Shown here: one piece after another, positions 1-33,103 of the stretch
Numbering within the stretch: position 1 is the stretch's first letter
Layout of the letters: the number at the start of each line of letters is the position of its first letter
DNA from: Candidatus Altarchaeota archaeon
GTDB lineage: Archaea; Altiarchaeota; Altiarchaeia; IMC4; QMZM01
DNA length: 33,103 nucleotides
Direction of reading: 5' to 3'
NCBI GenBank assembly: GCA_016931955.1
Contig: JAFGDV010000038.1
Location: 1 to 33,103, forward strand
Notes under the pieces: model-generated
The model's database searches: none
Seen by the model: only the letters and a program-made list of their open reading frames with translations
Told to the model about the DNA's origin: nothing
Position numbers and translations under genes: made by a program

Positions 1-99
1 AAAAGAAACGCGCCCGAAAGAAAAAGGAATTCGCCTACGGCGAATTCAACGGAAGGTAGGGTTGATAAGGGCGGAAACCCGCAGGTGTCTGCCCTTATG
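1..99 (+). repeat. Modular hairpin element, copy 1
   Basis: This is intergenic DNA with no supported gene. A perfect 9-bp stem GAATTCGCC (27-35) / GGCGAATTC (39-47) has a 3-nt loop. The shared block GGTAGGGTTGATAAGGG follows at about 55-71, and an outer stem ATAAGGGC (65-72) / GCCCTTAT (91-98) encloses small inner stems such as GCAG 81-84 / CTGC 89-92. The same modules recur in four other intergenic regions of the window, in the same orientation. The CAACCTTTT-type first stem of the other copies is not seen here; it may be absent or lie left of the window. Function is unknown. Confidence 0.8.
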
Positions 100-120
100 T
101 GTCAGATCACCTACTTCGGC

Positions 121-240
121 GTTTTATTGTCGTCCGACTCCCTTCGACAAGTCGACTGGAGTCGAATAACTATTGGTGTCCCTGTAAGTTATCTTGTTGC
201 TCTAGTGCACCATCCTTTACAGGCTAATTTCTGGGCCAGT
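121..240. other. Intergenic region with two inverted repeats
   Basis: No gene is supported between copy 1 of the hairpin element and the ORF at 289. A hairpin at 135-164 pairs CGACTCC (135-141) with GGAGTCG (158-164), with an inner TCGAC/GTCGA stem. A wider inverted repeat pairs CCTGTAA (181-187) with TTACAGG (217-223). Neither is followed by a T-run, so they are not obvious terminators. They could be operator or RNA structures, but nothing assigns a function. Confidence 0.4.
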
Positions 241-252
241 TAGTATATATGG
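241..252 (+). promoter_or_regulatory. TATA box for the ORF at 289
   Basis: The sequence TAGTATATATGG lies about 40 nt upstream of the ATG. An archaeal TATA box directs initiation about 25 nt downstream, which would give a leader of roughly 15 nt. This is inferred from spacing alone. Confidence 0.45.
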
Positions 253-288
253 GCGTACTACTCATAAGTAACAAATTACTCCACTAAA

Positions 289-723
289 ATGACCTCAACT
301 AACCTAGAGGGCATATTCTACTTTTATATCGAGAACAAGGTAACGGATGTGGGTTTACGCCTCGATATTGCCAAGGATATCCCTGATGAACTGGAAATTC
401 GAGTAGACAATATAACAAAAAACAAAGTTAGAGTTTACTTGAGAGGTAAAGAACAAGCAGTTGAGCGATTTTACAAATATATTAAAAAAAAGAAAAAAAT
501 AGGAAAAGCTGAAAACTACTCTATTTCTGAACTAAAACTGATGGAAGAAGCAGGTTGCATAAATATTGATACAAACAGGTTTTTCCATAAATTAGAATGT
601 GAACAGATGGGGAAATTTGTAGATGTAGGTATAGAAATGCGAGAAGAAATAACAGCCATGAAGGAGGAAATACAAAAACTACCTAAAAATCTGGCTAAGG
701 AACTAAAGAAAGTTCTTACTTAA
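289..723 (+). CDS. Small protein with a possible acylphosphatase-like domain
   Basis: The product is 144 residues. Residues about 8-70 resemble the ferredoxin-like fold of acylphosphatases. A segment VTDVGLRLDIAKDI sits where those enzymes have their GVxFR loop, and a second strand-helix unit (VRVYLRGKEQAVERFYKYIK) matches the usual value-of-group-then-helix pattern. The normal catalytic Arg/Asn context is not clean, so activity is doubtful. The remaining 70 residues form a lysine-rich, probably helical tail. The gene is visibly more AT-rich than the ribosomal genes beside it and stands alone between two hairpin elements, so it may be acquired. A TATA box about 40 nt upstream supports expression. 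The family assignment is tentative; it could be an unrelated small protein. Confidence 0.55.
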   Translation: MTSTNLEGIFYFYIENKVTDVGLRLDIAKDIPDELEIRVDNITKNKVRVYLRGKEQAVERFYKYIKKKKKIGKAENYSISELKLMEEAGCINIDTNRFFHKLECEQMGKFVDVGIEMREEITAMKEEIQKLPKNLAKELKKVLT

Positions 724-753
724 CCCGCGATAACATCTCCCCCCAACATCAGC

Positions 754-768
754 ACAGTATTTAAAGAA
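754..768 (+). promoter_or_regulatory. Possible upstream promoter reading into the hairpin array
   Basis: An AGTATTTAAAG-like TATA sequence at about 756-766 would start transcription near 785-792, just ahead of five tandem hairpins and 250 nt before rps13. If active, it would give the ribosomal operon a long structured leader, or a separate non-coding RNA. The call rests only on sequence resemblance. Confidence 0.3.
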
Positions 769-823
769 CAAAACCCTCAGTCATGTAAGGTGATACGAAC
801 AAGCTCCTCGCTCACTACCTCGG

Positions 824-1037
824 CGTCAACCTTTTTCTTAGAAAGAAAAACGTTGACGAAAAAGAAAGGAATTCGCCAGAGGCGAATTCTTAGGGTTGAT
901 ACGCGAGAGCGCATAGCGCTCTGTGCGCCAATACACTTATGTGTATTGCGCGAGGGCATGAGATGCCCTTATGTTGATAAGGGGTGGACCTTGGTTCTCG
1001 CACTTATTCGCTGACGTCGTAGGTTTTATGCCCTTAT
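824..1037 (+). repeat. Modular hairpin element, copy 2 (expanded, five tandem hairpins)
   Basis: The 318 bp between the ORF at 289 and rps13 hold no supported gene but contain a row of hairpins. Stem CGTCAAC (824-830) / GTTGACG (852-858) is extended by TTTTTCTT/AAGAAAAA. Stem GAATTCGCC (869-877) / GGCGAATTC (881-889) follows, then AGAGCGC (906-912) / GCGCTCT (916-922), CAATACAC (929-936) / GTGTATTG (941-948), and AGGGCAT (953-959) / ATGCCCT (963-969). Loops are 3-4 nt. An ATAAGGG at 977-983 can pair with CCCTTAT at 1031-1037, which overlaps the likely TATA box of rps13. The block TTAGGGTTGAT (890-900) is shared with the other copies. Small ORFs predicted through this stretch are not genes. 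Confidence 0.8.
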
Positions 1038-1042
1038 AAATA
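1031..1042 (+). promoter_or_regulatory. TATA box for rps13 (supports an internal start)
   Basis: CCCTTATAAATA lies directly against the first possible ATG (1042). Initiation about 25 nt downstream falls near 1062-1068, just before the in-frame ATG at 1069. This favours a leaderless message starting at residue 10 of the longest reading frame. Confidence 0.5.
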
Positions 1043-1548
1043 TGAAATCACATATTTTAAGACCCAAAATGCAGGCAGAGGCTAAGAAGAAGGTAGAAAA
1101 GGAGGAGTTCAGGCATCTGGTGCGTCTCTCTGGCGTGGTCTTAGACGGTAATCTAGATCTTATCAGAGCCCTCACTCGCATAAAGGGTGTCGGTCAGAGG
1201 ACTTCGGTCTCGCTCATAGACTCCTTAGGTATGGAGCATAAGATAAAACTCGGCTCACTTAATGAGGCTCAAGTGGATAAGTTAGAGGAGGGTATTAAGG
1301 GCCTTGATAAGATCATCCCTTCTTGGATGGTTAACAGACAGAAGGACAACTATACTGGAGAAAACATGCACCTCACCGGACCTGATTTGGATATGGCCTT
1401 CAGAGAGGACATAAACCTGCAGAAGAGGATTAAGTCATATAAGGGGATAAGACACAGCATGGGTCTGCCGGTTAGGGGTCAGAGGACGCGAACCTCTTTC
1501 AGGACTGGGGCAACAGTCGGCGTTAAAAGGAAGAAAACAAAGGTGTAG
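1042..1548 (+). CDS. rps13: 30S ribosomal protein S13 (uS13)
   Basis: uS13 sits in the head of the small subunit and contacts the P-site tRNA and the large subunit. The helix-hairpin-helix region (LIRALTRIKGVGQRTS) is diagnostic, as is the basic C-terminal tail with GLPVRGQRTRTSFRTG. The longest frame has 168 residues. Starting at the ATG at 1069 gives 159 residues beginning MQAEAKKKVEKEEF, which fits the family better and agrees with the TATA position, so 1069 is my preferred start. It is the first gene of the rps13-rps4-rps11-rpoD cluster, with 3 nt before rps4. The structured hairpin array directly upstream could influence its expression. Confidence 0.95.
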   Translation: MKSHILRPKMQAEAKKKVEKEEFRHLVRLSGVVLDGNLDLIRALTRIKGVGQRTSVSLIDSLGMEHKIKLGSLNEAQVDKLEEGIKGLDKIIPSWMVNRQKDNYTGENMHLTGPDLDMAFREDINLQKRIKSYKGIRHSMGLPVRGQRTRTSFRTGATVGVKRKKTKV

Positions 1549-1551
1549 GAT

Positions 1552-2085
1552 ATGGGTGATCCACGAAAACAGAGGAGGAGGTATGAAAGGCCACAGCATC
1601 CCTGGAGGTCCGATAGGATAACCGAGGAGAATGAACTCTGCAAAAAATACGGTCTGAAAAACAAGAAAGAGATCTGGAAAGCCAAGTCAAGGACAGGGAG
1701 GTTCAGGGAGCAGGCAAGGAAACTCCTCGGATCATCAGGCGAGGAGAGGGAAAAAGAATCCAAGGAGCTTTTAGATAAGCTGAACAGGTTAGGGATCCTA
1801 GAAAGCCCATCGATAGAGGACGTTCTGGGATTGAATGTGGAGAACCTGCTAGAGAGAAGGTTGGAGACGAGAGTGTATAGGGGGAATCTGGCGAACACGA
1901 TAAAGCAGGCAAGACAGTTAATAGTCCACGGCCACATTATAGTAGGCGACAACGTGGTGAGTATTCCAGGATACATAACACCGAAAGATGAAGAAGACAA
2001 AATCAAACTCAACGAAAAAATAAAGGTGGTAAAACTTGACGAAGGAAAGCAAGGAGAAAAAGTCCCCGAAAAAGAAAAAGCCTGA
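1552..2085 (+). CDS. rps4: 30S ribosomal protein S4 (uS4)
   Basis: uS4 is a primary 16S rRNA-binding protein that nucleates assembly of the small-subunit body. The 177-residue product has the archaeal-type N-terminus ([18 protein letters not shown]) and an S4 RNA-binding domain at about residues 100-160, with [20 protein letters not shown] followed by the [17 protein letters not shown] strand-turn. The tail is charged ([12 protein letters not shown]). The last 50 bp also encode the start of rps11 in another frame. The spacing indicates co-transcription and translational coupling with rps13 and rps11. Confidence 0.96.
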
Positions 2086-2581
2086 AGAGAGGGTAGAGGA
2101 AAAAGAGGAGGCTGCGGAGGAGACCCCCAAAGCTGCTGAGGAGGAACCAGTTGAAGAGAAAGAGGTGAAGGGGGAACAAAGGAAAAAGAAGGAGAGTGGA
2201 CTTTGGGGTATACTGAACATCTATTCATCGAAGAATAACACCATACTTCATGCAACAGACATAACAGGGGCTGAAACCATCAGCATAAAATCAGGCGGCC
2301 AAATAGTGAAATCTCAGCGTGAGGAATCCTCTCCCTATGCTGCAATGCAGTCAGCATTGAGGCTGGTGAAGGATATCAAAGACAAGGGATTCGAAGGAGT
2401 CCATATAAGGGTGAGAGCCCCCGGAGGCCACAATGGACCAAGATACCCTGGTAAAGGTGCTCAGGCTGCTATCAGGGTTATATCGAGGAGCGGGATACAT
2501 ATTGGGAGAATAGAGGATGTGACACCACTCCCATACGGCGGCTGCAGACCGAAGGGGGGTAAAAGAGGCAGACGCGTTTGA
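2036..2581 (+). CDS. rps11: 30S ribosomal protein S11 (uS11) with charged N-terminal extension
   Basis: uS11 lies on the platform of the small subunit beside the E-site mRNA. The core begins near residue 54 ([20 protein letters not shown]) and ends in the family signature [16 protein letters not shown]...[18 protein letters not shown]. Ahead of it is an unusual extension of about 50 residues, almost all Lys, Glu, Pro and Ala. The start is TTG at 2036, preceded by GGTGG at about 2025-2029. This places the first 50 bp inside rps4. An in-frame GTG at 2165 would remove most of the extension, so the true start needs proteomic evidence. Function is certain from the core; the extension is likely disordered. 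Confidence 0.93.
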
Positions 2582-2587
2582 GAGAAA

Positions 2588-3166
2588 ATGAATGTAAAAA
2601 TCACCAACAAAAAAAATAATCGGGTTGAATTCAATGTTTCCGGAATCACTGCGAGTCTTGCTAATGCATTCCGAAGGGCTGTTATCTCAGAGGTCCCAAT
2701 TATGGCTATTGAGGATGTAACCTTCTACCAGAACTCATCGATGATGGACGACGAAGTATTAGCCCACAGACTGGGTCTAATCCCGCTGAAGACCGATCCG
2801 GGGGGGATTGAAACCATGCGTGTAAGCTTGAAGTCTGAAGGTCCTGGAACCGTATACTCTAAGGAGCTTAAACCCATGGAAAAGAGGGTGAAAGGTAAGT
2901 CATCTTCTCTAGCAGCTTACGATAAAATACCCATCATGAAACTGACGGAGGGCCAGAGGATCGAGTTGGAGGCAACTGCTCAGATGAGAAGCGGGAGAGA
3001 ACACATAAAATGGCAGGGGGGGCTGGCTTCCTATGAGATAGAGAAGGATGGCTCCTTCAGTTTTTTCGTGGAATCCTACGGACAGATGCCAGTTAATGAA
3101 TTAATAAACAAAACATTCGAAGTATTCAATAAAAAGATCAAGGAACTTAGATCACAACTAAAATAA
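2588..3166 (+). CDS. rpoD: DNA-directed RNA polymerase subunit D
   Basis: Subunit D is the archaeal counterpart of eukaryotic Rpb3 and the bacterial alpha N-terminal domain, and pairs with subunit L to start polymerase assembly. The 192-residue product has the alpha-like dimerisation signature LANAFRRAVISEVPIMAIEDVT, then NSSMMDDEVLAHRLGLIPL. It contains no cysteines, so it lacks the Fe-S cluster domain found in the D subunits of many archaea and represents the short form. It follows rps11 by 6 nt and is followed by tRNA-Leu only 6 nt downstream, so the tRNA may be released from the same transcript. Confidence 0.95.
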   Translation: MNVKITNKKNNRVEFNVSGITASLANAFRRAVISEVPIMAIEDVTFYQNSSMMDDEVLAHRLGLIPLKTDPGGIETMRVSLKSEGPGTVYSKELKPMEKRVKGKSSSLAAYDKIPIMKLTEGQRIELEATAQMRSGREHIKWQGGLASYEIEKDGSFSFFVESYGQMPVNELINKTFEVFNKKIKELRSQLK

Positions 3167-3172
3167 TCACAT

Positions 3173-3321
3173 GCGGGGGTGCCCGAGTCCGGTCAAACAC
3201 ACGTCTTACCCCCTTTAATAACACTAAACATTTTGCCACCCATAAGGCGTTGTGGGCTAAAGGGGCACGGTTGAGGGCCGTGTGGCATAGGCCTGCGCGA
3301 GTTCGAACCTCGTCCCCCGCA
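3173..3321 (+). tRNA. tRNA-Leu(GAG) with an intron in the D-loop
   Basis: The acceptor stem pairs GCGGGGG (3173-3179) with CCCCCGC (3314-3320), with discriminator A at 3321 and no encoded CCA. The anticodon stem is CACGG (3266-3270) / CCGTG (3278-3282) with loop TTGAGGG, so the anticodon is GAG at 3273-3275. The T-stem is 3297-3301 / 3309-3313 with loop TTCGAAC. A class II variable arm lies between, as expected for leucine. The D-arm is split by a 64-nt intron (3197-3260); removing it gives a normal 85-nt tRNA with D-loop GGUCAAAGGGG. Lying 6 nt after rpoD, it probably depends on the rpoD transcript or on a promoter inside rpoD. Confidence 0.93.
3197..3260 (+). other. tRNA-Leu D-loop intron (bulge-helix-bulge)
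   Basis: The junctions form a full bulge-helix-bulge. The central helix pairs GGTC (3191-3194) with GGCT (3255-3258) and includes two G-U pairs. The 3-nt bulges are both AAA, at 3195-3197 and 3259-3261. The inner helix begins CAC (3198-3200) / GTG (3252-3254) and, past one bulged T, continues as ACGTCTTA (3201-3208) / TAAGGCGT (3243-3250). Cutting after the second A of each bulge joins position 21 to position 22 of the tRNA. Most archaeal introns sit at 37/38 in the anticodon loop, so this position is non-canonical. Confidence 0.88.
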
Positions 3322-3445
3322 ACCTTTTCATAAAAGGTTGATCAAAAGGAATTCGCCTAAAGGCGAATTCAAAAGAAGGGTTGGGTTGATAAGGGAGGGA
3401 ACGTAGTTCCCACCCTTATGTATCGAACAACTCGTCCCCCGCAAC
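3309..3445. repeat. 15-bp direct repeat of the tRNA-Leu 3' end flanking hairpin element copy 3
   Basis: CTCGTCCCCCGCAAC occurs at 3309-3323, where it is the T-stem and acceptor end of tRNA-Leu, and again at 3431-3445. CGAAC precedes each copy, directly at the first and two bases further away at the second. The 107 bp between them hold the hairpin element. This looks like the duplicated attachment site left by integration at a tRNA 3' end, or a remnant of a duplicated tRNA tail. No integrase is present here. Confidence 0.7.
3320..3420 (+). repeat. Modular hairpin element, copy 3
   Basis: Stem CAACCTTTT (3320-3328) / AAAAGGTTG (3332-3340) starts on the last two bases of tRNA-Leu. Linker ATCAAAAG leads to GAATTCGCC (3349-3357) / GGCGAATTC (3362-3370). 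A purine-rich tract and GGGTTG follow. The last hairpin combines the outer stem ATAAGGG (3389-3395) / CCCTTAT (3413-3419) with an inner stem GGGAAC (3397-3402) / GTTCCC (3406-3411). It is the cleanest complete copy, about 101 bp long. Confidence 0.85.
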
Positions 3446-3556
3446 TGCCACTGTCAGTTGACACTTGGGAGCCACATGCGCTCCCTGATGTCGCTTAGTG
3501 GCTCTTAACAAATCAAAAGGGAAGAATGGGTTTGGCACGGAGAGTGTTTTGATAAA
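3446..3556. other. Intergenic region before rpl18e
   Basis: No gene is supported. It holds short inverted repeats: TGTCA (3452-3456) / TGACA (3459-3463), GGGAG (3467-3471) / CTCCC (3481-3485), and the alternative GAGCCAC (3469-3475) / GTGGCTC (3498-3504). The last two are mutually exclusive. A GGAGAG at about 3540 is rather far from the rpl18e start to serve as a ribosome binding site. I see no convincing promoter. Confidence 0.35.
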
Positions 3557-3922
3557 ATGCCTAGAACGTATGAATTCGAGGACCCAAGGAGGGTGGATTT
3601 GATGGATAGGCTTCGGGAAGCGGCTAGGGTTAATGATGCAGGCATCTGGAAGGCGTTGGCTGAGGAGTTGTCTCGCTCAAGGAAGGATAGGCATGCAGTT
3701 AACCTATGGAAGGTAAACAAATACACGAAGAAGGGGGACACTGTTCTCGTGCCAGGCAAGCTTTTAGGAGACGGTGTCTTGGATCATAGGGTTGATGTTG
3801 CCGCGTTCAAGGTCAGTGAATCAGCTAAGGATAAGGTAGAGGCTGCTGGCGGGAAGGTTATCTCAATCCATGAATTGGTGGAGAAGAACCCGAAGGGCTC
3901 CAATATTGTGATGATTGGTTAA
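3557..3922 (+). CDS. rpl18e: 50S ribosomal protein L18e (eL18)
   Basis: eL18 is a large-subunit protein shared by archaea and eukaryotes and related in fold to bacterial L15. The 121-residue product shows the family pattern: an N-terminal helix region (DLMDRLREAARVNDAGIWKALAEEL) with SRSRKDRHAVNLWKVNKYTKKGDTVLVPGKLLGDG, then a small alpha-beta C-terminal domain ending GGKVISIHELVEKNPKGSNIVMIG. It opens the second half of the ribosomal/polymerase cluster, separated from rpoD by tRNA-Leu and a hairpin element. rpl13 begins one base after its stop. Confidence 0.96.
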   Translation: MPRTYEFEDPRRVDLMDRLREAARVNDAGIWKALAEELSRSRKDRHAVNLWKVNKYTKKGDTVLVPGKLLGDGVLDHRVDVAAFKVSESAKDKVEAAGGKVISIHELVEKNPKGSNIVMIG

Positions 3923-3923
3923 G

Positions 3924-4361
3924 ATGATAGTTAACGCTGAGGGGCAGGTTTTAGGCAGGCTGGCGTCGTTCGTCGCCAAGCAGGCGTTGCTCGGAGACGA
4001 GGTTATTGTAGTGAACGCTGAGAAGGCGCTGGTCTCGGGTAAGGGAGATATGGTGAGGGGTAAGGAGTTAGAGAAGCTGGATATAAGGAACATAGGTAAC
4101 ACAAAGAAGGGCCCCTTCCACCAGAAGAGACCTGATAAGTACGTTAGAAAAGCCGTCCGCGGCATGCTTCCTTGGAAGAAGGCCAGCGGCAGAGAAGCCT
4201 TTAAGAGGATTCAGGTTTATATAGGCATCCCCGAAGATGTTATAAAAAAGGTGCATAATGTGGGGAAGATTGAGATACATAACTTAGATGACATGAAAAA
4301 GGGTTTAGTGGAGTATACTACAGTCGCTGAAATCTGTAAGTCCATAGGTGGAAAATGGTAG
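3924..4361 (+). CDS. rpl13: 50S ribosomal protein L13 (uL13)
   Basis: uL13 is an early-assembling large-subunit protein. I choose ATG 3924 (MIVNAEGQVLGRLAS), the conserved family start, giving 145 residues. A TTG three codons upstream (3915) would overlap the rpl18e stop and adds nothing conserved. The signature VRGMLPWKKASGREAFKRIQVY is present, and the archaeal insertion with GNTKKGPFHQKRPDK matches. The coding region overlaps the first 7 bp of rps9, which suggests coupled translation. Confidence 0.95.
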   Translation: MIVNAEGQVLGRLASFVAKQALLGDEVIVVNAEKALVSGKGDMVRGKELEKLDIRNIGNTKKGPFHQKRPDKYVRKAVRGMLPWKKASGREAFKRIQVYIGIPEDVIKKVHNVGKIEIHNLDDMKKGLVEYTTVAEICKSIGGKW

Positions 4362-4771
4362 AGAAACAAATTCACAAGGCAGGGAAAAGGAAGATGTCTA
4401 TTGCTCGGGCGACGGTGAAAAAGGGCAGGGGTAGGGTGACCATAAACGCTGTACCTCTTGACGTCTATCAGCCAGAGATTGCTCGATTCAAGATTTATGA
4501 GACTCTGATGCTTGCATCAGATCACGTGGACTTGAAGAAGATTGATTTGTCGGTGAGCGTGAGGGGTGGCGGTGTCATGGGGCAGGCTGATGCCATACGT
4601 TCCTCGATAGCAAGGGGTCTGGTAGAGTTTTCGGGTAGTGATGAATTACTTAACGCGTATATATCCAATGATAGGACGCTGATAGCCGGGGACCATAGAC
4701 TGACGGAGCCTCATAAACCAAGTCAGAGCAGTAAGGGTCCAAGGCATAAAAGACAGAAATCATATAGGTAG
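4355..4771 (+). CDS. rps9: 30S ribosomal protein S9 (uS9)
   Basis: uS9 sits in the head of the small subunit; its C-terminal tail reaches the P-site tRNA. The 138-residue product has the N-terminal GKRKMSIARATVKKGRGRVTIN motif, the VRGGGVMGQADAIRSSIARGL signature, and the conserved basic tail ending RHKRQKSYR. It overlaps rpl13 by 7 bp. The stop codon overlaps the strong ribosome binding site of rpoN. Confidence 0.96.
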   Translation: MVEKQIHKAGKRKMSIARATVKKGRGRVTINAVPLDVYQPEIARFKIYETLMLASDHVDLKKIDLSVSVRGGGVMGQADAIRSSIARGLVEFSGSDELLNAYISNDRTLIAGDHRLTEPHKPSQSSKGPRHKRQKSYR

Positions 4772-4775
4772 GAGG
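4771..4775 (+). promoter_or_regulatory. Ribosome binding site of rpoN
   Basis: GGAGG overlaps the rps9 stop codon and lies 8 nt before the rpoN ATG. It is one of the few clear Shine-Dalgarno sites in this window and fixes the rpoN start. Confidence 0.7.
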
Positions 4776-4783
4776 AATACAAA

Positions 4784-4984
4784 ATGATTATTCCAATCAG
4801 GTGTTTTAGCTGCGGTAAACCGATAGCCAAGGACTGGGAGGAATACAAAGAAAGGACATCTGCTGGAGAGGATTCCAAGAAGGTCCTCGACTCCCTGGGC
4901 TATGATAGGTACTGCTGTAGGAGGATGTTTATCTCCCACTCAGAAGTCATCGATGATGTGATGAGGTACAGGAGACTTCAATAG
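4784..4984 (+). CDS. rpoN: DNA-directed RNA polymerase subunit N
   Basis: This is the archaeal Rpb10, a small zinc-binding polymerase subunit that contacts the D-L platform. The 66-residue product has the family zinc site: the CFSCG motif at residues 7-11 and the CCRR pair near residues 44-47. The length matches the family. It lies between rps9 and rpoK in the conserved archaeal order, and rpoK starts 5 nt after its stop. Confidence 0.96.
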
Positions 4985-4989
4985 ATAAA

Positions 4990-5169
4990 ATGGAATACAC
5001 TAAATTCGAAATCGCCAGACTGATTGGTGCACGTGCGTTGCAGATAAAGATGGGTGCGCCAGTCTTGATAGATATCCCATCAGGTGTTAATAGGCCGCTG
5101 GATATAGCGAAGCAAGAACTCGAAAAAGATGTTTTACCTATAACAGTTAAAAGGAAGGAGCCAAGATGA
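4990..5169 (+). CDS. rpoK: DNA-directed RNA polymerase subunit K
   Basis: This 59-residue protein is the archaeal Rpb6/omega subunit, which clamps the largest subunit during assembly. The translated start [18 protein letters not shown] and the following [11 protein letters not shown], then [20 protein letters not shown], are the family core. It is close to a minimal Rpb6 core with no N-terminal tail. Its stop codon overlaps the ATG of rps2 by 4 bases, so the two are translationally coupled. Gene order (rpoN-rpoK-rps2) confirms the call. Confidence 0.94.
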
Positions 5170-5843
5170 CTGAGGAGATTGACGTATCAACCGAAGACTT
5201 TCTTGTCCCATTGGATGATTACCTCTCGAACGGGGTCCATGTTGGATTGAAGTATAGAACAAAGGATATGAGGGAATTCATATACAAGATCAGGCAGGAT
5301 AAACTCTGCGTCTTTGACGTGAGAAAAATAAACGATAGGTTGAGGATTGCCGTAGACTTCATCTCAAGATATGATCCGAAGAATGTTGTAGTGATTTCTA
5401 ATAGGGTGTACGGCAGAAAGCCGATAAAGAAGTTCTGCGAATACGTTGGCTGCACGGCAATAGAAAACCGCTTTGTTTCAGGGACCCTGACGAACCCGGA
5501 GATAGAAGACTACGTTGAAGCAAAACTGCTTATAGTCACGGACCCCAGCAGTGATCAGCAGGCTATTAAGGAGGCTGCTCTGGCCGGGATACCCGTTGTG
5601 GCAATCTGCGACACAAACACCAGGTCAAAAAACATAGACTTGATCATACCATCCAACAATAAAGGTAAGAACTCTCTCGCATTGATCTACTGGATACTCA
5701 GCAAGGAGATTCTGAAGAAGAGGGGTGTGGGGGAATTTAACGCTCAGCTCGATGATTTCATATCCAAGGCCGAACCCCAACCCTACTTATTGAAGATGCA
5801 GGAACTGCAGAGAAGGCAGAGGCGGAAGAAGAGGAGGGGGTAG
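5166..5843 (+). CDS. rps2: 30S ribosomal protein S2 (uS2)
   Basis: uS2 binds at the head-body junction of the small subunit late in assembly. The 225-residue product has the two S2 signatures: a start region like [20 protein letters not shown], and [28 protein letters not shown]. The archaeal [16 protein letters not shown] segment follows. The C-terminus is strongly basic. GGAAGGAG inside the end of rpoK supplies a ribosome binding site. It is the last gene of the operon here and converges on enolase with 6 bp between stops. Confidence 0.96.
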
Positions 5844-5847
5844 ATAG

Positions 5848-5862
5848 GGTTAAAGATTAACC
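5848..5862. terminator. Palindrome between convergent rps2 and eno
   Basis: GGTTAA (5848-5853) / TTAACC (5857-5862) with a 3-nt loop spans the enolase stop codon and lies right after the rps2 stop. It could act as a weak bidirectional terminator. There is no long T-run, so this is a suggestion only. Confidence 0.3.
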
Positions 5863-7112: not shown

Positions 7113-7128
7113 ATAATAGATTTAGCTT

Positions 7129-7142: not shown

Positions 7143-7146
7143 GCCC

Positions 7147-26357: not shown

Positions 26358-26374
26358 TGGGGAATAGTATCATC

Positions 26375-26392
26375 CCTATAGTAATATACACT
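26375..26392 (-). promoter_or_regulatory. TATA box for lonB
   Basis: GTGTATATTACTATAGG on the minus strand lies about 25-30 nt before ATG 26357, which predicts a leaderless or near-leaderless message. Confidence 0.45.
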
Positions 26393-26416
26393 ATCGAGGC
26401 TTAAATATGGCTCAGT

Positions 26417-27382
26417 CTACCACTTTACCTCGACCTCGTCCGTCCTGAACCTCTGCCTCACATAGCTCTCCTCTAAGCCCTGCCTGATGCCTGCATCATA
26501 CATCAACAATCCAAGCAACGCTATCATTACGCCGTTATCGCTGCAATAGCCCTTAGGGACGCCGAAGACTGCCTCATGTTCTTCGGACATCTTTGCCAGC
26601 ATCACTTGGAGCCTTGAGTTGTTGCCTACACCACCAGTTAAGAGCACCTCCTTCGCCTTCAGGTGGGCTAAAGCCCTCTCCGTTACCTCGGAGAGCATGG
26701 CAAACGCCGTCTCCTGAAGCGAAAAACATACGTCTTCAAGCTTGTTGTCTTTGATCCTCTGGAGGGCGCTGGTAAGCAACCCAGAGAAAGAAAGGTCAGT
26801 GCCCTTAACCACGTAAGGCAGCTCGATATAGTTCTTACCCTCTTTTGCAAGGGCCTCGATCTTGGGGCCGGCTGGATGCTCTAAACCAACCTCCCTGCCG
26901 AACTTGTCCAGCATGTTCCCCACCCCGATGTCAAGGGTTTCCCCGAAGACTCGATAGTAGTTATCCTTCAGCTTAAGTATCTGTGTATTGCCGCCGGAAA
27001 CATACAATACCAGGGGATCACTCAGCCTGCAGAATATCCTCCCCACCTCAATATGCGCCACACAATGGTTCACTCCCATGAGGGGGATTCCATAACTCAG
27101 TGACAGGGTTCTCGCCGCTGTTGCCGAAGTCCTGAGACACGGTCCCATGCCGGGGCCCTGAGAAAAGGATATCAGGTCTATTCCCTTGAAATCAAGACCG
27201 GCTTTCTCAAGAGCTTCATCCAATGCCTTGCTCATACTATCAGCCATGAACTGCGAGGCCTCCCTCGGATGGATCCCCTTAGAGGGCACATAAACCATCC
27301 TCACATCGGATAGCACTTCATGGTCTGCAACAATCCCTATACCTAGGGTGTGGGCGGTGCCCTCGATACCTAAAGCTATCAT
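26417..27382 (-). CDS. kae1: tRNA N6-threonylcarbamoyladenosine synthesis protein Kae1
   Basis: Kae1 transfers the threonylcarbamoyl group to A37 of ANN-decoding tRNAs within the KEOPS complex. The 321-residue product has the ASKHA fold start (ALGIEGTAHTLGIGIVAD), a metal-binding NHCVAHIEVGR motif, the phosphate-binding VSGGNTQILKL, and the late LLTGGVGNNSRLQVML. It is not fused to the Bud32 kinase as in many euryarchaea; no bud32 gene is in this window. It diverges from endA across 38 bp of shared promoter. Confidence 0.95.
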   Translation of the reverse strand: MIALGIEGTAHTLGIGIVADHEVLSDVRMVYVPSKGIHPREASQFMADSMSKALDEALEKAGLDFKGIDLISFSQGPGMGPCLRTSATAARTLSLSYGIPLMGVNHCVAHIEVGRIFCRLSDPLVLYVSGGNTQILKLKDNYYRVFGETLDIGVGNMLDKFGREVGLEHPAGPKIEALAKEGKNYIELPYVVKGTDLSFSGLLTSALQRIKDNKLEDVCFSLQETAFAMLSEVTERALAHLKAKEVLLTGGVGNNSRLQVMLAKMSEEHEAVFGVPKGYCSDNGVMIALLGLLMYDAGIRQGLEESYVRQRFRTDEVEVKW

Positions 27383-27385
27383 CTT

Positions 27386-27420
27386 CCAGCTTAAATTATC
27401 TTAAACGAATATAAATAAAA
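27386..27420. promoter_or_regulatory. Shared divergent promoter of kae1 and endA
   Basis: On the minus strand TTTATATTCG (about 27408-27417) is about 30 nt before the kae1 ATG. On the plus strand CTTAAATTATC (about 27389-27399) would start endA near its ATG. Both genes are likely leaderless. Confidence 0.45.
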
Positions 27421-27933
27421 ATGAGTGCAGGAATATTATCTGGTACCAAGGTCCTCGTCGGAGAAGGCGACCTGAAGTCTCTACTTCGGGAGAAGGGCTT
27501 CGGCACAGAGAAGGGAGCCCGACAGGAGCTGTCGTTGATAGAAGCCCTCTACTTGCTGGAATCCGAGAAGATGGAGGTCGTCGACGGAAAGAAGACACTC
27601 TCCTTCGAGGAACTCATAGAGATCGGCAACAAGATAGAGGAAAACTTCTACTCAAAGTATCTGGTCTACAGTGACCTTAGGAACAGGGGCTTGTTGGTGA
27701 GAACTGGTTTGAAGTTCGGCTCAGACTTCAGGGTCTACGAGAGGGGGGTTACAGTGAAAAAAGGCCACTCCACACAGTTGGTGAACGTCGTCCCAGAAGA
27801 ATATACTTGCTCTTTCCCGGAGCTTGCTCGGACCATAAGGTTGTCGCAGAACGTGAACAAGGCCATGATCTACGCCGTAGTAGACGAGGAAGGCGACATA
27901 ACCTACTACCAGATAGACCGAGTCAAGCTCTGA
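27421..27933 (+). CDS. endA: tRNA-splicing endonuclease EndA
   Basis: EndA cuts bulge-helix-bulge sites to release tRNA introns. The 170-residue, single-unit protein has the size of the homotetrameric (alpha4) form. The catalytic residues are visible: Tyr106 in DFRVYERG, His116 in KKGHSTQLV, and Lys147 in NVNKAMIYAVV. The C-terminal strand YYQIDRVKL matches. The alpha4 form is thought to need strict bulge-helix-bulge structures, which both tRNA introns in this window have. Its stop lies 42 bp before tRNA-Trp, a substrate. Confidence 0.96.
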   Translation: MSAGILSGTKVLVGEGDLKSLLREKGFGTEKGARQELSLIEALYLLESEKMEVVDGKKTLSFEELIEIGNKIEENFYSKYLVYSDLRNRGLLVRTGLKFGSDFRVYERGVTVKKGHSTQLVNVVPEEYTCSFPELARTIRLSQNVNKAMIYAVVDEEGDITYYQIDRVKL

Positions 27934-27939
27934 ATCCCA

Positions 27940-27953
27940 TGGTTTTAATTAAC
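27940..27953 (+). promoter_or_regulatory. TATA box for tRNA-Trp
   Basis: GGTTTTAATTAACG lies about 25-30 nt upstream of the first base of tRNA-Trp (27976), the expected archaeal spacing. Confidence 0.5.
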
Positions 27954-27975
27954 GAAATCGGATAATTACTTATAC

Positions 27976-28153
27976 GGGGCTGTGGGGTAGTCAGGCATCC
28001 TAGCAGGCTCCAGTGAACCTCTTTTTCTTTCCATAAGAAAAAGAAACCACGTACTGGAGCGCTGATCCCCTCCGGGGAGATGATGAACGGAAAGGTACGA
28101 ACCACATGGTTTGGAGGTACCTGCCGATGGGGGTTCAAATCCCCCCAGCCCCA
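27976..28153 (+). tRNA. tRNA-Trp(CCA) with a 105-nt intron
   Basis: The acceptor stem pairs GGGGCTG (27976-27982) with CAGCCCC (28146-28152); discriminator A is at 28153 and CCA is not encoded. The anticodon stem is GCAGG (28003-28007) / CCTGC (28120-28124), and the anticodon CCA is at 28010-28012. The T-arm is GGGGG (28129-28133), loop TTCAAAT, CCCCC (28141-28145). The intron (28014-28118) lies at the canonical 37/38 position. Removing it leaves a 73-nt tRNA. Confidence 0.95.
28014..28118 (+). ncRNA. tRNA-Trp intron with a box C/D-type methylation guide
   Basis: The splice sites form a bulge-helix-bulge: CTCC (28008-28011) pairs with GGAG (28113-28116), the bulges are AGT and GTA, and the inner stem is GAACC/GGTTT. 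Inside, box D'-type CTGA (28062-28065) and box C'-type ATGATGA (28080-28086) flank hairpin TCCCC/GGGGA. CTGGAGC (28054-28060) before the CTGA pairs with positions 31-37 of the tRNA. The fifth base upstream of the box faces C34, the known Cm34 site of archaeal tRNA-Trp. The second C/D pair is degenerate. An extra hairpin CTTTTTCTT/AAGAAAAAG lies at about 28021-28043. Confidence 0.85.
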
Positions 28154-28161
28154 ATCACCCT

Positions 28162-28308
28162 CAACCTTTTCGTAAAAGGTTGACCAAAAAGACGCTGTTG
28201 CGTCTTTTCTGAGTCGAAAACCGTAAGGTTTTCGCTCATCAAAAAGAATTCGCCATAGGCGAATTCAAAAGGAGGGTAGGGTTGATAAGGGCACCTTGTA
28301 CCCTTATG
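28162..28308 (+). repeat. Modular hairpin element, copy 4 (five hairpins)
   Basis: The region between tRNA-Trp and the MBF1 gene is filled with hairpins: CAACCTTTT (28162-28170) / AAAAGGTTG (28174-28182); AAAAGACGC (28187-28195) / GCGTCTTTT (28200-28208); CGAAAACC (28215-28222) / GGTTTTCG (28227-28234); GAATTCGCC (28246-28254) / GGCGAATTC (28258-28266); and ATAAGGG (28285-28291) / CCCTTAT (28301-28307). The second and third are extra compared with copy 3. The 25-nt block AAAAGGAGGGTAGGG... before the last stem matches copy 3 at 23 of 25 positions. Confidence 0.85.
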
Positions 28309-28321
28309 TTTCCACACTTAT

Positions 28322-28804
28322 ATGCAATGCGAGGTCTGTGAGAAGCTTATCGTGGAGGGTAGGCGGGTGAGGATTGAAGGCTCCGTTGTAGTTACCTGTG
28401 AGGATTGCGCGAGGTTTGGCGAGGTGGTTGGTTTCGTCAGCTCCCGCGAGAAAAAGAAGCCTGCTGTGAGGGCTGAAGTTAGTGAAGGTGTTTCATTTGA
28501 TGTTGGAGGCGACGATCTTGTTGACGATTACCCTGGGATCATAAGGGATAAGAGGGAGAAGATGGGTTTGAAGCAGGAGGATCTTGCTAAGTTGATCAAT
28601 GAGCCTTCTTCTCTTATACATAGGCTGGAGACTGGCAGGATGGAGCCTGACCCTGAGGTGGCGAGTAAGCTGCAGAAGGCGTTAGGTGTGAAATTGTTGT
28701 GTAAATCAGGTTCTGAAGTTGTTCAACCTGAGAAGCCGACTGGATCTGATGAGTTGACTTTAGGCGATCTCGTAGTCATCAAGAAAAAGGGGGGGAAGAG
28801 GTAA
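28322..28804 (+). CDS. mbf1: Multiprotein bridging factor 1-like regulator (MBF1)
   Basis: The 160-residue product has an N-terminal zinc ribbon (Cys3, Cys6, Cys26, Cys29: MQCEVCEKL and VTCEDCA), a flexible basic linker, and an XRE-type helix-turn-helix at about residues 75-130 (IIRDKREKMGLKQEDLAKLI, ETGRMEPDPEVASKLQKAL). This is the archaeal MBF1 architecture; the eukaryotic protein is a transcriptional co-activator and is also linked to ribosome quality control. It starts 14 nt after hairpin element copy 4 and is followed 1 nt later by the site-2 protease gene. Confidence 0.93.
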   Translation: MQCEVCEKLIVEGRRVRIEGSVVVTCEDCARFGEVVGFVSSREKKKPAVRAEVSEGVSFDVGGDDLVDDYPGIIRDKREKMGLKQEDLAKLINEPSSLIHRLETGRMEPDPEVASKLQKALGVKLLCKSGSEVVQPEKPTGSDELTLGDLVVIKKKGGKR

Positions 28805-28805
28805 A

Positions 28806-30230
28806 GTGCTTTATTTTTTCTTGTTGGTTCTTTTTTTTGTCGGAGGAACCTTTTTGCTTTGGAAGACTAAACATGAGAGACACTTTATCGTCTTCATGAT
28901 CAGGACTAAACACTTTCTCGGTTTCTTGGATAAGCTTGCTGGACTTATGCCTGGGTTCTGGAGATTTTTGGCTGATTTCGCCATCGTTTTCTCGTTCAGC
29001 GGTGTTGGCGTAGCGTATTTATCAAAGCATAGTAGAGAACGCAGGAACCTTGATTTGGTAATGTTCATCTTCGGCTTCTTTGCAGTCTTGATGTGGGCGG
29101 AAAGCCTTGACTTGTTGGCTCTCATGCTAGCTGGCTTAGTACTGGTGGTATTAAGCCTGAGCAAGCTGAGGGACGCCTTGATCGACTTCGTCGTTGCAAC
29201 CGTTTTGATTTCATCCATCATGTTGAATGTCATGGTTTGGTATCTGGCGGTGCTTGAAGGCGTTGTCGGCATCCTCGGTATTCTTGCCGGCTCACTAGTC
29301 GGCCACGCCCTCGATATAACATCAGGTCAATCAACCGTCCCAGGTGTGTCCCCTATAATACCATGGATCGAATCAGGTCAATTGGGTTTCAGCATTCCGG
29401 GTTTGGGCATATTTGTTCCATTAGGCTACGGAGTTGTCTCCTTGATACTCCTCTTATTCGTTCATGAGTTCTCTCACGGAATACTTGCCAGAGTCCATCA
29501 GCTCGAGCTGAAGTCCACTGGCTTATTAACCTTGGGTCCCATCCCCATAGGCGCCTTTGTTGAGCCTGATGAGGAGAAATTCAAGGAATGTGAGAGTATC
29601 GTTAAGATGCGAGTCTTATCGATGGGTTCATTCTCCAATCTAGTATTATCCACAGTAGCTATCTTTCTCTTCATCTTGATCATAGCTCCTTCAGGTGGCT
29701 GGGTTGTCGCTGAATCCAATATAACAGCCATAGAAAATGGAACAATCGTGGAATCTATTGGCGACATAAACCTGTCATCTGTCGGCTACATAGGGGCGGC
29801 GATGGACGCGAACCTTTTCTCCAATAGATTCTATACGCTGAAGGAGGAGACCTTCGAAAACGAGAGCTTAGTGAACATAACAACCGAAAATGGTTTATTA
29901 GCCCTAACACCTGAGGAGTTATCTGATCTGAAGATCAAGTATGTTCCAGGTTATAGTTTCGACTTCGAGTTGCTGGGTTTCAGCCTGCCCCCTATTTTCG
30001 CAGGCACTCTATTCTGGATATTCTTCTTCAACCTTAACATTGCTTTAGCGAATCTTCTGCCGATTGTGCCATTCGACGGAGGCAAGATGATAATAGAGTT
30101 GTTATCTATTTTCAGGCTTAGTGAGGAGTCTGTGAGGAGGATAGTCTACGCCTTCCTCCTCGCAGGGTTGCTTGTTTTGCTGATTAACGCCTACCCCCTG
30201 CTTTATATGGTCTTTGATTTGTTTTTTTAG
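28806..30230 (+). CDS. Site-2 protease family membrane metalloprotease (M50)
   Basis: The 474-residue product is a multi-pass membrane protease that cuts substrates within the membrane. The zinc-binding motif HEFSH is at about residues 220-224 (LLFVHEFSHGILARVH). The third ligand lies in LANLLPIVPFDGGKMIIE near residue 425. At least eight hydrophobic helices are visible, with an external loop of about 100 residues between the two catalytic parts that may hold a PDZ-like fold. The start is GTG at 28806. It is the second intramembrane protease in the window. Its 3' end overlaps elp3 by 4 bp. Confidence 0.93.
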   Translation: MLYFFLLVLFFVGGTFLLWKTKHERHFIVFMIRTKHFLGFLDKLAGLMPGFWRFLADFAIVFSFSGVGVAYLSKHSRERRNLDLVMFIFGFFAVLMWAESLDLLALMLAGLVLVVLSLSKLRDALIDFVVATVLISSIMLNVMVWYLAVLEGVVGILGILAGSLVGHALDITSGQSTVPGVSPIIPWIESGQLGFSIPGLGIFVPLGYGVVSLILLLFVHEFSHGILARVHQLELKSTGLLTLGPIPIGAFVEPDEEKFKECESIVKMRVLSMGSFSNLVLSTVAIFLFILIIAPSGGWVVAESNITAIENGTIVESIGDINLSSVGYIGAAMDANLFSNRFYTLKEETFENESLVNITTENGLLALTPEELSDLKIKYVPGYSFDFELLGFSLPPIFAGTLFWIFFFNLNIALANLLPIVPFDGGKMIIELLSIFRLSEESVRRIVYAFLLAGLLVLLINAYPLLYMVFDLFF

Positions 30231-31867
30231 GTCAGCTTCTTTGACATATATGGACCCTCTCTAATGTAGCCGAATCTACGGTAGTAGTCTCTCACCCCTA
30301 TGCCGCTTGTTACCAGTATTTTCTCCATGCCCAAGCTCGTGCTTAGGTTCTCCGCCTCAGCCAGAAGCTCGGCGCCGTAGCCGCGGTGCTGCCACTCGAA
30401 GCTTGGTTTCTCCCCTACCTCCAGCATGGGGCCGTAGACGTGCAGTTCCCTTACCAAGGACGTCTTGGAAGTAATCTCCGGCCTGAACGGCTCATTCGGT
30501 ATCCTCAAGCGAAGGAAACCTATGAGTATGTCCTTCTTTGTGTCATCGAAGGACAGGAAGACTTCCCTGCCGCCGCTTGCATCGTAATCCATCCTGAGAA
30601 GCTCTATGTCATCTGCTTCCGGCTCTAAACCCTTCTTCGTCATCTGACCCACCTCCCTGCATCTGACGCACCTGCACTTGATGCCTCTCTTTTCCATCTC
30701 ATTGTAGACTAATTCGCCCAGATTCGAGGCCTTTACTCCAGCATCTATCAGGGGGGAGGGGATATCTCGTTGTATCCTCATCGTCCTCATCCATTTGGGG
30801 AGCGTGGATTTCACCTTAACTATGAGGTCCACAGCCTCTTCCGTCGTTAAAGGCCTGAACTCTCCTCTCCGCCACATGTCATAGTATTCTGTCCCCTTCA
30901 GGACCAAGCAAGGATATATCTTGACCATGTCCGGCTTGAATCTTTCATCTTTTATTATCTCATCAAATGCTTTAAGGTCTAGTTCAGGGTTATATCCTAG
31001 AATGCCGGGCATCATGTGGTAGCCTACCTTCAGCCCTGAATCCTTTAGCTGCTGCGTTGATTCAACAACGTCCTGGACTGTGTGACCCCTCTCCACCTTC
31101 TCATAGATTCTATCATCCGGGTTCTGGACGCCGATTTCCACCCTAGTTACCCCGAATTTTAGCATATGGTTTATCTGCTCCTCCTTCGCCCAATCGGGAC
31201 GCGGCTCAAAGGTTATGCCCACGCATCTTACCGTGGATTTTTCGTTCTCCTCCTGAAGGTCCTCAATGTAGTTGAATCTCTTCTCGGATTTACTGTATTC
31301 CTGGATGAACGCTTCCTCGCCCAGCTCCTTTATTCTCCCATAGTTTTCTCTGAACTCGTTCATGGCCTTCAGGGATTCCTTAACGAACCACTCCTGGTAG
31401 TCTAGGCATTGTGCTGTCAGGGTTCCGCCCATGACGATAAGCTCGACCTTCCCTATGGGATGCCCTATGTCTTTCAGTTGTGTAAGCCTGAATGTTACCT
31501 GTAGGTGGGGGTCGAATCCGTATCTTATAGCGCGCCTCGTTGCTGGTTCTTTGCCTGTGTAGCTCTGCGGTACCTGTATGTCCGGTCCGCCTGGACAGTA
31601 CCTGCATCTGCCGTGGGGGCACTTCGAGGGCTGAGTCATGGCGGCAACCACCGCAACCCCGGAAAGCGTCCTCATGGGCTTCTTCCTCAATAGATTGAGT
31701 ACCTTAGCCCGCTCCCCGGGCTTCGCATACCTCAGTATCTCAGAACTGCGGACGAATCTATCCAGCCGAAGCTCTTCAGATAGGCGCCTCTTCTCAGCAT
31801 CAAGACCTTCCCTGTCAACTATCTCCCCGGAAAGGATTTTCTCGATTATTGCTCTATATGGATCCAT
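30227..31867 (-). CDS. elp3: tRNA uridine(34) acetyltransferase Elp3
   Basis: Elp3 makes carbonylmethyl-type modifications on wobble uridines. The protein of 546 residues has the radical SAM domain with cysteine motif CPHGRCRYC (CX4CX2C, near residues 83-91) and a C-terminal GNAT acetyltransferase domain with acetyl-CoA loop QHRGYGAELLAEAE, ending GVRDYYRRFGYIREGPYMSKKL. A zinc-like set CRCVRCREVG lies between. I choose ATG 31867 (MDPYRAIIEKIL); a TTG three codons upstream is also possible. It acts on tRNA like kae1 and endA in the same window. Confidence 0.95.
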   Translation of the reverse strand: MDPYRAIIEKILSGEIVDREGLDAEKRRLSEELRLDRFVRSSEILRYAKPGERAKVLNLLRKKPMRTLSGVAVVAAMTQPSKCPHGRCRYCPGGPDIQVPQSYTGKEPATRRAIRYGFDPHLQVTFRLTQLKDIGHPIGKVELIVMGGTLTAQCLDYQEWFVKESLKAMNEFRENYGRIKELGEEAFIQEYSKSEKRFNYIEDLQEENEKSTVRCVGITFEPRPDWAKEEQINHMLKFGVTRVEIGVQNPDDRIYEKVERGHTVQDVVESTQQLKDSGLKVGYHMMPGILGYNPELDLKAFDEIIKDERFKPDMVKIYPCLVLKGTEYYDMWRRGEFRPLTTEEAVDLIVKVKSTLPKWMRTMRIQRDIPSPLIDAGVKASNLGELVYNEMEKRGIKCRCVRCREVGQMTKKGLEPEADDIELLRMDYDASGGREVFLSFDDTKKDILIGFLRLRIPNEPFRPEITSKTSLVRELHVYGPMLEVGEKPSFEWQHRGYGAELLAEAENLSTSLGMEKILVTSGIGVRDYYRRFGYIREGPYMSKKLT

Positions 31868-31926
31868 CGTATCCAATACATACTTTGGAATCAGAGTAAA
31901 TTACATTTTCTTGTTCTGTTGACTAA

Positions 31927-32235
31927 TTAAGGGAGCTTCAGCTTTTATGCGGCGGAGAGGGCTTAAAGGATGCGTTCTCGGACATCGAAGTGCTCGCAGA
32001 CAAATGCAAGTACGGGAAGTGCACACATACGAAAGAACCCGGATGCGCTGTTTTAGAGGCAGTGAAAGACGGCCTAATACCTGAGAGGAGACTGGAGAAC
32101 TATCACAAACTGAAACGTGAAATAGAGTACAATCTCTCCAAGCATGAGGCACGATTCAGAAACAAACGAAGCAATTTCTGGAAGAATGTAGGCAAACAAG
32201 CGAAACTCATCAAAAAATCCAGAGGGGAGCACTGA
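31927..32235 (+). pseudogene. Orphan C-terminal fragment of ribosome small-subunit GTPase RsgA
   Basis: RsgA is a circularly permuted GTPase that helps mature the 30S subunit. Only its C-terminal part is here. In frame from 31927 the sequence reads LRELQLLCGGEGLKDAFSDI, then the zinc-binding CKYGKCTHTKEPGC (CX4CXHX5C), and the helical tail ENYHKLKREIEYNL, KKSRGEH. This matches the end of RsgA proteins almost from the switch region on. The OB and GTPase domains are missing: a TAA stop stands at 31924 and elp3 begins on the other strand just upstream. A GTG at 31990 could still express 81 residues. It is probably a deletion remnant. Confidence 0.82.
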
Positions 32236-32285
32236 AGCATATAAAGGCGACTTAAGCGGCTCAGGTAACGGAAGCATAACAGAGG

Positions 32286-32471
32286 TTATCGGAAATGTGA
32301 CTTTTGCAGTTTCCCCCAAGTCATGCGTTTTTCTTTGGAGAGGGTTTTGTTTATGAAATGGTTTGCCTCCTCAAGCCATGTGAGTTTCATTTCAGGGGAT
32401 AACCTATAACTCTGCCTTATTTTCTCTCTATCTAGTGTAAAAGAGAAACTGGTTTTAGTTTTTTTTCTCAT
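32286..32471 (-). CDS. Small partner of the nucleotidyltransferase
   Basis: The 61-residue product has a basic N-terminus and the segment YRLSPEMKLTWLEEANHFIN, a pattern seen in small proteins encoded next to nucleotidyltransferases. Its ATG lies inside the end of the upstream gene (17-bp overlap), so the two are translated together. A role as partner or antitoxin is inferred from context, not from a known family match. It is convergent with the RsgA fragment. Confidence 0.6.
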   Translation of the reverse strand: MRKKTKTSFSFTLDREKIRQSYRLSPEMKLTWLEEANHFINKTLSKEKRMTWGKLQKSHFR

Positions 32472-32958
32472 TCTTTATCTTCTCCAATTCGTTTAAGGCC
32501 TTCATATCTGCCACATCCTGAGTCCTTCCTGAGATCTCTTTTAGTTTCTTGATTCCTTCAAGGGATATTACCGGTATCCTTATACCCTTGGCTTTAAAGA
32601 CCTTCCTTTCAGTATATGCTTTATCGAAGTCTATTGGCTCGTCTATGAAAACATCAACAACCTCAAAGGGCTTCTTTGGGTTGTAGAATGAGAAAACCAT
32701 CATATTCTTCTTCTGCCTCCATTCACTTCTTTTCTCAGGATTTAATAGATCTGATGCCTTTACAGGTGCCTTCGGCTTGTACCCTAGATACCCAAGTACA
32801 TCTATGAACTTGGCCAGATTTTCTCTGCCTAAGTGCACCATCAGGTCAAGATCGACTGTTAACCGCACGACTCCGTGTAGTACAATGGCCACGCCGCCAA
32901 CTACCAAGTATTTCACGCGCCTCTTATTCAATTCCCTGAAAACATCTTCATAGTACAT
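32455..32958 (-). CDS. Nucleotidyltransferase-fold protein (AbiEii/DUF6036-like)
   Basis: The 167-residue product shows the nucleotidyltransferase core: GGVAIVLHG at residues 21-29 followed by LTVDLDLMV, where Asp36 and Asp38 form the metal-binding DxD pair. The later VVDVFID (about residue 100) supplies the third acidic residue. GGGAG-type sequence GGCGGGAG lies just before the ATG. Proteins of this kind are often the toxin half of two-gene modules; here the second gene overlaps it. The gene looks more AT-rich than its neighbours, which fits a mobile or acquired pair. Confidence 0.75.
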   Translation of the reverse strand: MYYEDVFRELNKRRVKYLVVGGVAIVLHGVVRLTVDLDLMVHLGRENLAKFIDVLGYLGYKPKAPVKASDLLNPEKRSEWRQKKNMMVFSFYNPKKPFEVVDVFIDEPIDFDKAYTERKVFKAKGIRIPVISLEGIKKLKEISGRTQDVADMKALNELEKIKNEKKN

Positions 32959-32989
32959 TTCTCCCGCCGGCTTAGTAAAGTATTTAGGG

Positions 32990-33016
32990 AACGCATAAAT
33001 AAACCCATACTATGGG
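32990..33016 (-). promoter_or_regulatory. Promoter and palindromic operator candidate of the nucleotidyltransferase pair
   Basis: On the minus strand TTTATTTATG (about 32994-33003) is a TATA box whose start would fall near 32970. Directly upstream CCCATA (33004-33009) / TATGGG (33011-33016) is a perfect palindrome around one base. A palindrome next to the TATA box is the usual place for an autoregulatory operator. Confidence 0.4.
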
Positions 33017-33052
33017 AAGCGTGCACGGAAAGAAACAGAATTTTCTTTTTCG

Positions 33053-33103
33053 CAAACTTTTCGTAAAAGTTTGATCAAAAAGAATTCGCCATCAGGCGAA
33101 TTC
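33053..33103 (+). repeat. Modular hairpin element, copy 5 (cut by the window end)
   Basis: Stem CAAACTTTT (33053-33061) / AAAAGTTTG (33065-33073) is followed by linker ATCAAAAA and GAATTCGCC (33082-33090) / GGCGAATTC (33095-33103). Compared with copies 3 and 4 one C-G pair of the first stem is replaced by A-T, so the stem is kept. The GGGTTGATAAGGG part would lie beyond the window. Confidence 0.8.

Follow-up and report, generated by a model that had tools for sequence, protein, structure and literature searches.

The window analyzed here is the 33,103-nt stretch of JAFGDV010000038.1, which makes up the complete contig C10 from a Candidatus Altarchaeota archaeon whose genome (G000, the host) is an archaeal draft metagenome-assembled genome (MAG) of 1.55 Mb in 46 contigs. 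It contains strings of intergenic hairpins, one of which, designated M3, is best explained as a small (∼40–55 nt), non-coding archaeal mobile element that inserts at the 3′ ends of genes (probability about 0.62). At the level of sequence, the comparisons described below establish the anatomy of M3, its flanking duplications, its polarity, its empty and filled sites, and its spread.

In the model that we propose, the mobile unit would comprise a short lead, either purine-rich or RAATTA, followed by GGGTTG and a single hairpin with a fixed outer stem (ATAAGGG/CCCTTAT) and a variable inner stem. This unit would insert just after a gene, above all a tRNA gene, and in the gene’s own orientation, with its CCCTTAT end joined to a point within the last 15–80 bp of the gene, which in tRNAs would lie near T-loop position 53/54. 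The stretch from the junction to just beyond the gene end would become duplicated, which would keep the upstream gene intact and place a second, displaced gene end downstream of it. Staggered cutting with fill-in or one-ended copying may make the duplications, presumably through some enzyme acting in trans. The composite strings found in the window would result from repeated insertion at one spot, in combination with further cassettes such as M1, M2, and D. The hairpin would occupy the tRNA T-loop of other archaea in the opposite direction and probably be spliced out as a bulge-helix-bulge (BHB) intron.

Flanking duplications and orthologous gaps

The M3 set comprised 176 distinct sites from Altiarchaeota, Woesearchaeota, Aenigmatarchaeota, and others, and the duplication test covered the 149 copies with enough flanking sequence. 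The sequence directly after CCCTTAT strongly matched upstream sequence in 47 of the 149, versus two when flanks were swapped between copies; a stricter score yielded 41 duplications versus none in the swapped controls, and the match often started exactly after CCCTTAT. The Altiarchaeota duplications (n = 31) were 17–80 bp long (median 44) and were polarized: 26 included a same-strand gene 3′ end, whereas antisense gene ends were never included, as compared with 19% and 9% for random intervals. Seventeen of the 31 contained the stop codon of a same-strand open reading frame (ORF), nine a tRNA 3′ end, and five neither; some of the apparent ORF stops belong to spurious ORFs over tRNA ends, including that of the tRNA-Leu in the window, which leaves the gene-end total unaffected.

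The duplicated gene end was often that of a tRNA, from the T-loop to the 3′ end. Host tRNAs and modules were counted from pattern searches, Rfam searches, and selected sequence stretches rather than from a full annotation; on this basis, and by our reading, 14 of the 17 host tRNA genes found with Rfam directly precede such hairpins, as do the two tRNA genes of the window, each of which contains at least one intron. A second copy of the tRNA’s own T-loop-to-3′-end segment was present in the 3′ flank of eight of 19 host tRNAs, compared with one match in the controls, which itself belongs to a neighboring unit. Repeated units occur at the tRNA-Pro on C9 and also on C21 and C24. The relative G008 has 21 M3 copies, several of them identical at different loci, located behind both protein genes and tRNAs; there the gene retains its reading frame through the upstream end, and the downstream duplicate is left over. 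At one site in G006 (L116; C43, ∼1501), M3 and a duplication lie within an apparent coding gene whose reading frame is apparently still open. On host contig C4 (L014), a direct repeat of ∼28 bp (ACTACACCTTGGATCTCAGCAATGCTGC) downstream of M3 flanks a segment with a small AACCTTT hairpin, and hairpins other than M3 may therefore also insert with long duplications.

Orthologous gaps were found both with and without the element among the genomes compared, all of them draft MAGs (60–92% complete within the family). The rpoN/rpoK junction, at 4950–5010 (plus strand) in the window, is tight or empty in the host, G002, G003, G007, and G009, whereas in G008 the same gap is occupied by a pair of M3 units, both accompanied by a duplicate of the junction between the genes. 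The gap 3′ of tRNA-Leu is short in G005 and G012, with a spacer of ∼23 nt, versus differing hairpin strings in five genomes, the host included, and a similar variation was seen at the tRNA upstream of an rpl14e-like gene. Such empty and filled gaps are predicted by insertion and not by a vertically inherited structured RNA. A preliminary description of this DNA had proposed either a small non-autonomous mobile element or a family of structured RNAs; the first proposal is well supported by the flanking duplications, the empty and filled orthologous site, the presence in one relative of nearly identical copies at numerous loci, and the spread over several archaeal phyla.

Modules of the window and the core unit

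Three hairpin modules recur in the window, namely M1 (AACCTTTT-type), M2 (GAATTCGCC/GGCGAATTC), and M3 (GGGTTGATAAGGG...CCCTTAT), and all copies are in plus orientation with no ORF overlapping them, in keeping with the preliminary description. Copy 1 (27–98), truncated by the contig start, consists of M2 (27–47), a purine tract (48–58), and M3 (59–98). Copy 2 (824–1007) contains M1 (824–858), M2 (869–889), an expanded M3 (893–972), in which two extra hairpins interrupt the stem, and an M3-like hairpin (973–1007); these last two are looser forms, in addition to the three strict M3 of the window. Copy 3 (3320–3419) comprises M1 (3320–3340), M2 (3349–3370), a purine tract (3371–3382), and M3 (3383–3419), and copy 4 (28162–28307) comprises M1 (28162–28182), an extra two-hairpin module D (∼28191–28240), M2 (28246–28266), a purine tract (28267–28278), and M3 (28279–28307). 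Copy 5 (33052–33103), truncated by the contig end, retains M1 (33052–33073) and M2 (33082–33103). Five copies are thus real, with M2 exact at all five sites, but the complete module set that had been ascribed to each is absent from copies 1 and 5: copy 1 lacks most of M1 and copy 5 lacks M3 altogether, because the contig ends cut them.

Copies 3 and 4 lie directly 3′ of intron-containing tRNA genes on the plus strand. The host gene of copy 3 (3173–3321) is a tRNA-Leu whose anticodon is GAG and whose D-loop contains an intron; this gene was read by eye and was not detected by ARAGORN or Rfam. A duplicate of its 3′ end (original 3303–3323) stands at 3423–3445, just after the M3 of copy 3. The host gene of copy 4 (27976–28153) was named tRNA-Trp by ARAGORN with introns allowed. 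In its default mode, ARAGORN found no tRNA in the window, where both tRNAs contain introns, and an Rfam search of the window gave no matches at the gathering score.

Further copies were found genome-wide, with 12 M2 and 16 M3 matching strict patterns in the host; reversed patterns gave no matches, so the M2 and M3 copies are not due to chance. The order M1-M2-M3, which had been described as fixed, holds throughout the window but varies elsewhere in the host, where C18 has M1-M3 without M2, C22, C31, and C42 have M1-like hairpins placed after M2, C30 and C22 have units terminating in a hairpin other than the M3 type, and module D is present only sometimes. The smallest inserts with their own duplication consist of M3 preceded by at most ∼14 nt, and M3 with a short lead was therefore taken as the unit. 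The core is accordingly GGGTTG plus the ATAAGGG...CCCTTAT hairpin, with the remaining hairpins as extra cassettes in no fixed order; a single modular element of fixed order is not supported, as M3 with its short lead can have a duplication to itself and the remaining modules are freely combined.

The position before M3 is A, G, or T with no fixed tetranucleotide, the GGGTTG lead belongs to the motif, and M3 is a single palindrome without the terminal inverted repeats of a parent transposon. As had been noted, the inner part of the stem differs between copies within a constant outer stem; pairing is nevertheless retained, the first inner pair being kept in 156 of 175 M3 versus ∼69 in shuffles, and the second in 150 of 163 versus 99.

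Distribution and tRNA-associated copies

A scan of named genomes recovered at least 109 stretches with the M3 pattern, almost all archaeal; for the loose pattern used, ∼30 chance matches were estimated under uniform base composition, and these would be mostly bacterial and without paired inner stems. The taxa among the matches listed were Woesearchaeota, Nanoarchaeota, Aenigmatarchaeota, Altiarchaeota, Diapherotrites, scattered other archaeal MAGs, and two Atribacteria MAGs. In a sample of 394 archaeal genomes, 20 contained the M3 pattern, nine of them outside the phylum, and reversed controls gave none. M3 sequences of named Altiarchaeales and Altiarchaeota MAGs (L130, L194, L197, L172, and L176) coincide with those of G009 and G002, two members of the host’s family, which places the host, as their relative, in Altiarchaeota. 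The M3-like hairpins of the two Atribacteria-labeled MAGs (L158, L160, L189, L191, and L199), some in tandem with terminator-like hairpins, could reflect misbinning, transfer, or convergence. Viral carriage of M3 was considered and rejected: a viral collection gave nine pattern matches, most without a paired inner stem and with no sign of enrichment, and the three hairpin-bearing viral matches resemble the bacterial (Atribacteria) type. One further copy (L108; G019 C81) lies in a 16S-23S rRNA spacer, 3 nt ahead of a tRNA-Ala.

In ∼15 tRNA genes of other archaea, an inverted M3 (ATAAGGG...CCCTTATCAACCC) follows directly after the T-loop, and the remaining T-stem resumes past a second hairpin (T-stem positions in the first copy of L193 and in L208 were read by eye). 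In most cases, CGAA (or UGAA) of the inserted sequence is complementary to an exon UUCG (or UUCA), and a bulge of 3 nt precedes the T-stem; L213 has the compensating pair UUCA/UGAA. Most of the ∼15 conform to the BHB layout of a 4-bp helix between 3-nt bulges, and L136 (two copies), L167, and L217 have a 3-bp helix only. Cutting within these bulges is predicted to leave a T-loop of the usual 7 nt, and the T-loop copies are probably BHB introns. Elsewhere, CCCTTAT adjoins the tRNA 5′ end or, in the opposite direction, the tRNA 3′ end. One of the introns of the tRNA-Trp in the window contains an M1-like hairpin (∼28022–28046, within 28020–28049), and an intron of a tRNA with a CAU anticodon in G007 (L056; C7) contains a hairpin closely resembling M1; modules other than M3 may thus also become introns.

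Alternative explanations and known systems

The best-surviving alternative, which we still consider unlikely, is that the hairpins are structured RNAs acting in the transcript as tRNA leaders, trailers, or introns, mRNA 3′ tails, or terminator or processing signals, and are kept by selection, with the duplications as by-products of local tandem duplication. The retention of pairing while sequence varies and the sense orientation at gene ends agree with this, as do the T-loop introns, the Woesearchaeota hairpins located between promoter and tRNA 5′ end, and the U-rich M1 tracts directly after tRNAs. This half of the preliminary proposal therefore receives some support, but it does not explain the duplications, which start exactly at CCCTTAT, nor does it readily accommodate orthologous gaps with and without the element, opposite orientations at different tRNA positions, or the absence of strict M3 from most genomes of the phylum.

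Several results weigh against a mobile M3. About half of the copies have no duplication, which would then have decayed or never been present, and duplications of 17–80 bp are unlike those of any standard transposase. No candidate enzyme tracked M3 among the 29 genomes of the phylum: Y1 transposase (PF01797) was found in five (absent in G000, G002, and G009), RVT_1 in two (absent in the host, G002, G008, G009, and all M3-rich genomes of the phylum), Cas1 in seven (absent in G000, G002, G006, G007, and G009), and tyrosine recombinase in 18 (none in G002, G006, G007, and G009). No protein recurred beside M3. How much weight these absences carry depends on how complete the M3-bearing genomes are; all are drafts, in which an enzyme could escape notice. 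A TTGAT inside M3 was considered as an ISDra2-type target and dropped because no TnpA is present.

The lack of a mobility enzyme that tracks M3 would be expected if the copies were accidents of host replication or repair, in which hairpins promote template switching at gene ends, copying a near or distant hairpin and re-copying the 17–80 bp target with no dedicated enzyme. The variable duplication length and the tandem and nested hairpin strings also agree with such accidents; we nevertheless regard them as an improbable source, given that the exact, recurrent CCCTTAT boundary and the tRNA T-loop preference suggest specific recognition, and that different phyla share one conserved 13-nt motif. 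Retroposition, by reverse transcription of an RNA copy at a target nick, would account for the fixed CCCTTAT end, the variable other end, the long, variable duplications, and the polarity with transcription. Such traits may point to a SINE-like retroposon, with part of the 5′ variation stemming from other modules, but the distribution of RVT_1 given above makes this route quite improbable. Remnants of elements integrated by a tyrosine recombinase or Cas1-type integrase, which would leave attL/attR-like repeats at tRNA and gene 3′ ends, are very improbable: the tRNA segment from T-loop to 3′ end classically serves for attachment, with the gene end restored as it is here, but the inserts are only tens of bases long and occur at many different genes per genome, each repeat matches its own gene, the 17–80 bp lengths contradict one fixed repeat length or core, neither enzyme tracks M3, and the T-loop introns do not fit.

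A mobile M3 is not explained by any known mobile-element family. Fifteen M3 loci gave only tRNA and rRNA matches in Rfam at the gathering score, and the open-licence literature, searched by sequence string and topic, held no description of M3, although one may exist elsewhere; the earlier remark that no named archaeal element has this architecture thus agrees with both sources. Among the closest parallels are mitochondrial repetitive hairpin-forming elements, including the double-hairpin elements of Allomyces, which are likewise tens of bases long, made of hairpins only, without protein, dispersed and mainly intergenic, and present several times per genome; the Allomyces elements were reported without flanking duplications, and RNA intermediates were suggested (PMC2800124), whereas M3 has long duplications and gene-3′-end polarity. 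Bacterial REP/BIME sequences share with M3 the 20–40 bp palindromes outside genes, arranged in mosaics, but their known super-families have GTAG or CGTC tags and Y1-type RAYT proteins (PMC2817692, PMC3733652), in contrast to the GGGTTG lead, long target duplications, and lack of such a tag in M3 and of a Y1 protein in the host. Prokaryotic miniature inverted-repeat transposable elements, reported from some archaea, are also small and non-autonomous with target duplications, but these are short and of fixed length and the elements carry the terminal inverted repeats of a parent transposon (PMC10969869); for M3, a single palindrome with a median duplication of 44 bp, no parent was found. The variable lengths likewise differ from the fixed-length duplications of casposons and Cas1, and repeats that match each host gene differ from the one core per element of tyrosine-recombinase att sites. 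Gain of tRNA introns through mobile-element integration was proposed earlier for a 1.8-kb sequence with an ORF in a Caldiarchaeum tRNA-Thr (PMC3293823); the ∼15 T-loop insertions resemble BHB introns in the same way, but M3 is a hairpin of tens of bases common to introns, leaders, trailers, and mRNA ends.

We tentatively suggest, as a possible rather than probable extension, that M3 represents a new class of mobile element: a ∼40-nt hairpin, oriented with transcription at gene 3′ ends, which duplicates and thereby preserves the gene end, gives rise to some of the tRNA introns of archaea, and moves without any transposase, recombinase, integrase, or reverse transcriptase known so far. The polarity may reflect some involvement of transcription or of the RNA produced, but it could also have arisen because insertions in other orientations were selected against. 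If correct, M3 would be a widespread and as yet nameless class of minimal mobile DNA in archaea that gathers at gene ends while leaving genes intact, and would point to a so far unrecognized integration activity. It would also offer a concrete source for puzzling archaeal tRNA introns, leaders, and tandem 3′ fragments, and make the origin of BHB introns testable by comparison of empty and filled sites.

Mobile M3 hairpins would further account for the assembly breaks of such genomes at hairpin sites. C10 starts and stops inside repeat copies, and other host contigs likewise begin or end in a repeat, as expected because assemblers break at repeats. The last 27 bases of the window (33077–33103; AAAAAGAATTCGCCATCAGGCGAATTC) are identical to positions 1–27 of host contig C37 (L010), and the two may be neighboring contigs; the join is ambiguous because the same M2 is present at the end of C46. 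Beyond these bases, C37 contains a further hairpin and then reaches the 3′ end of a 5S-like rRNA encoded on the other strand.

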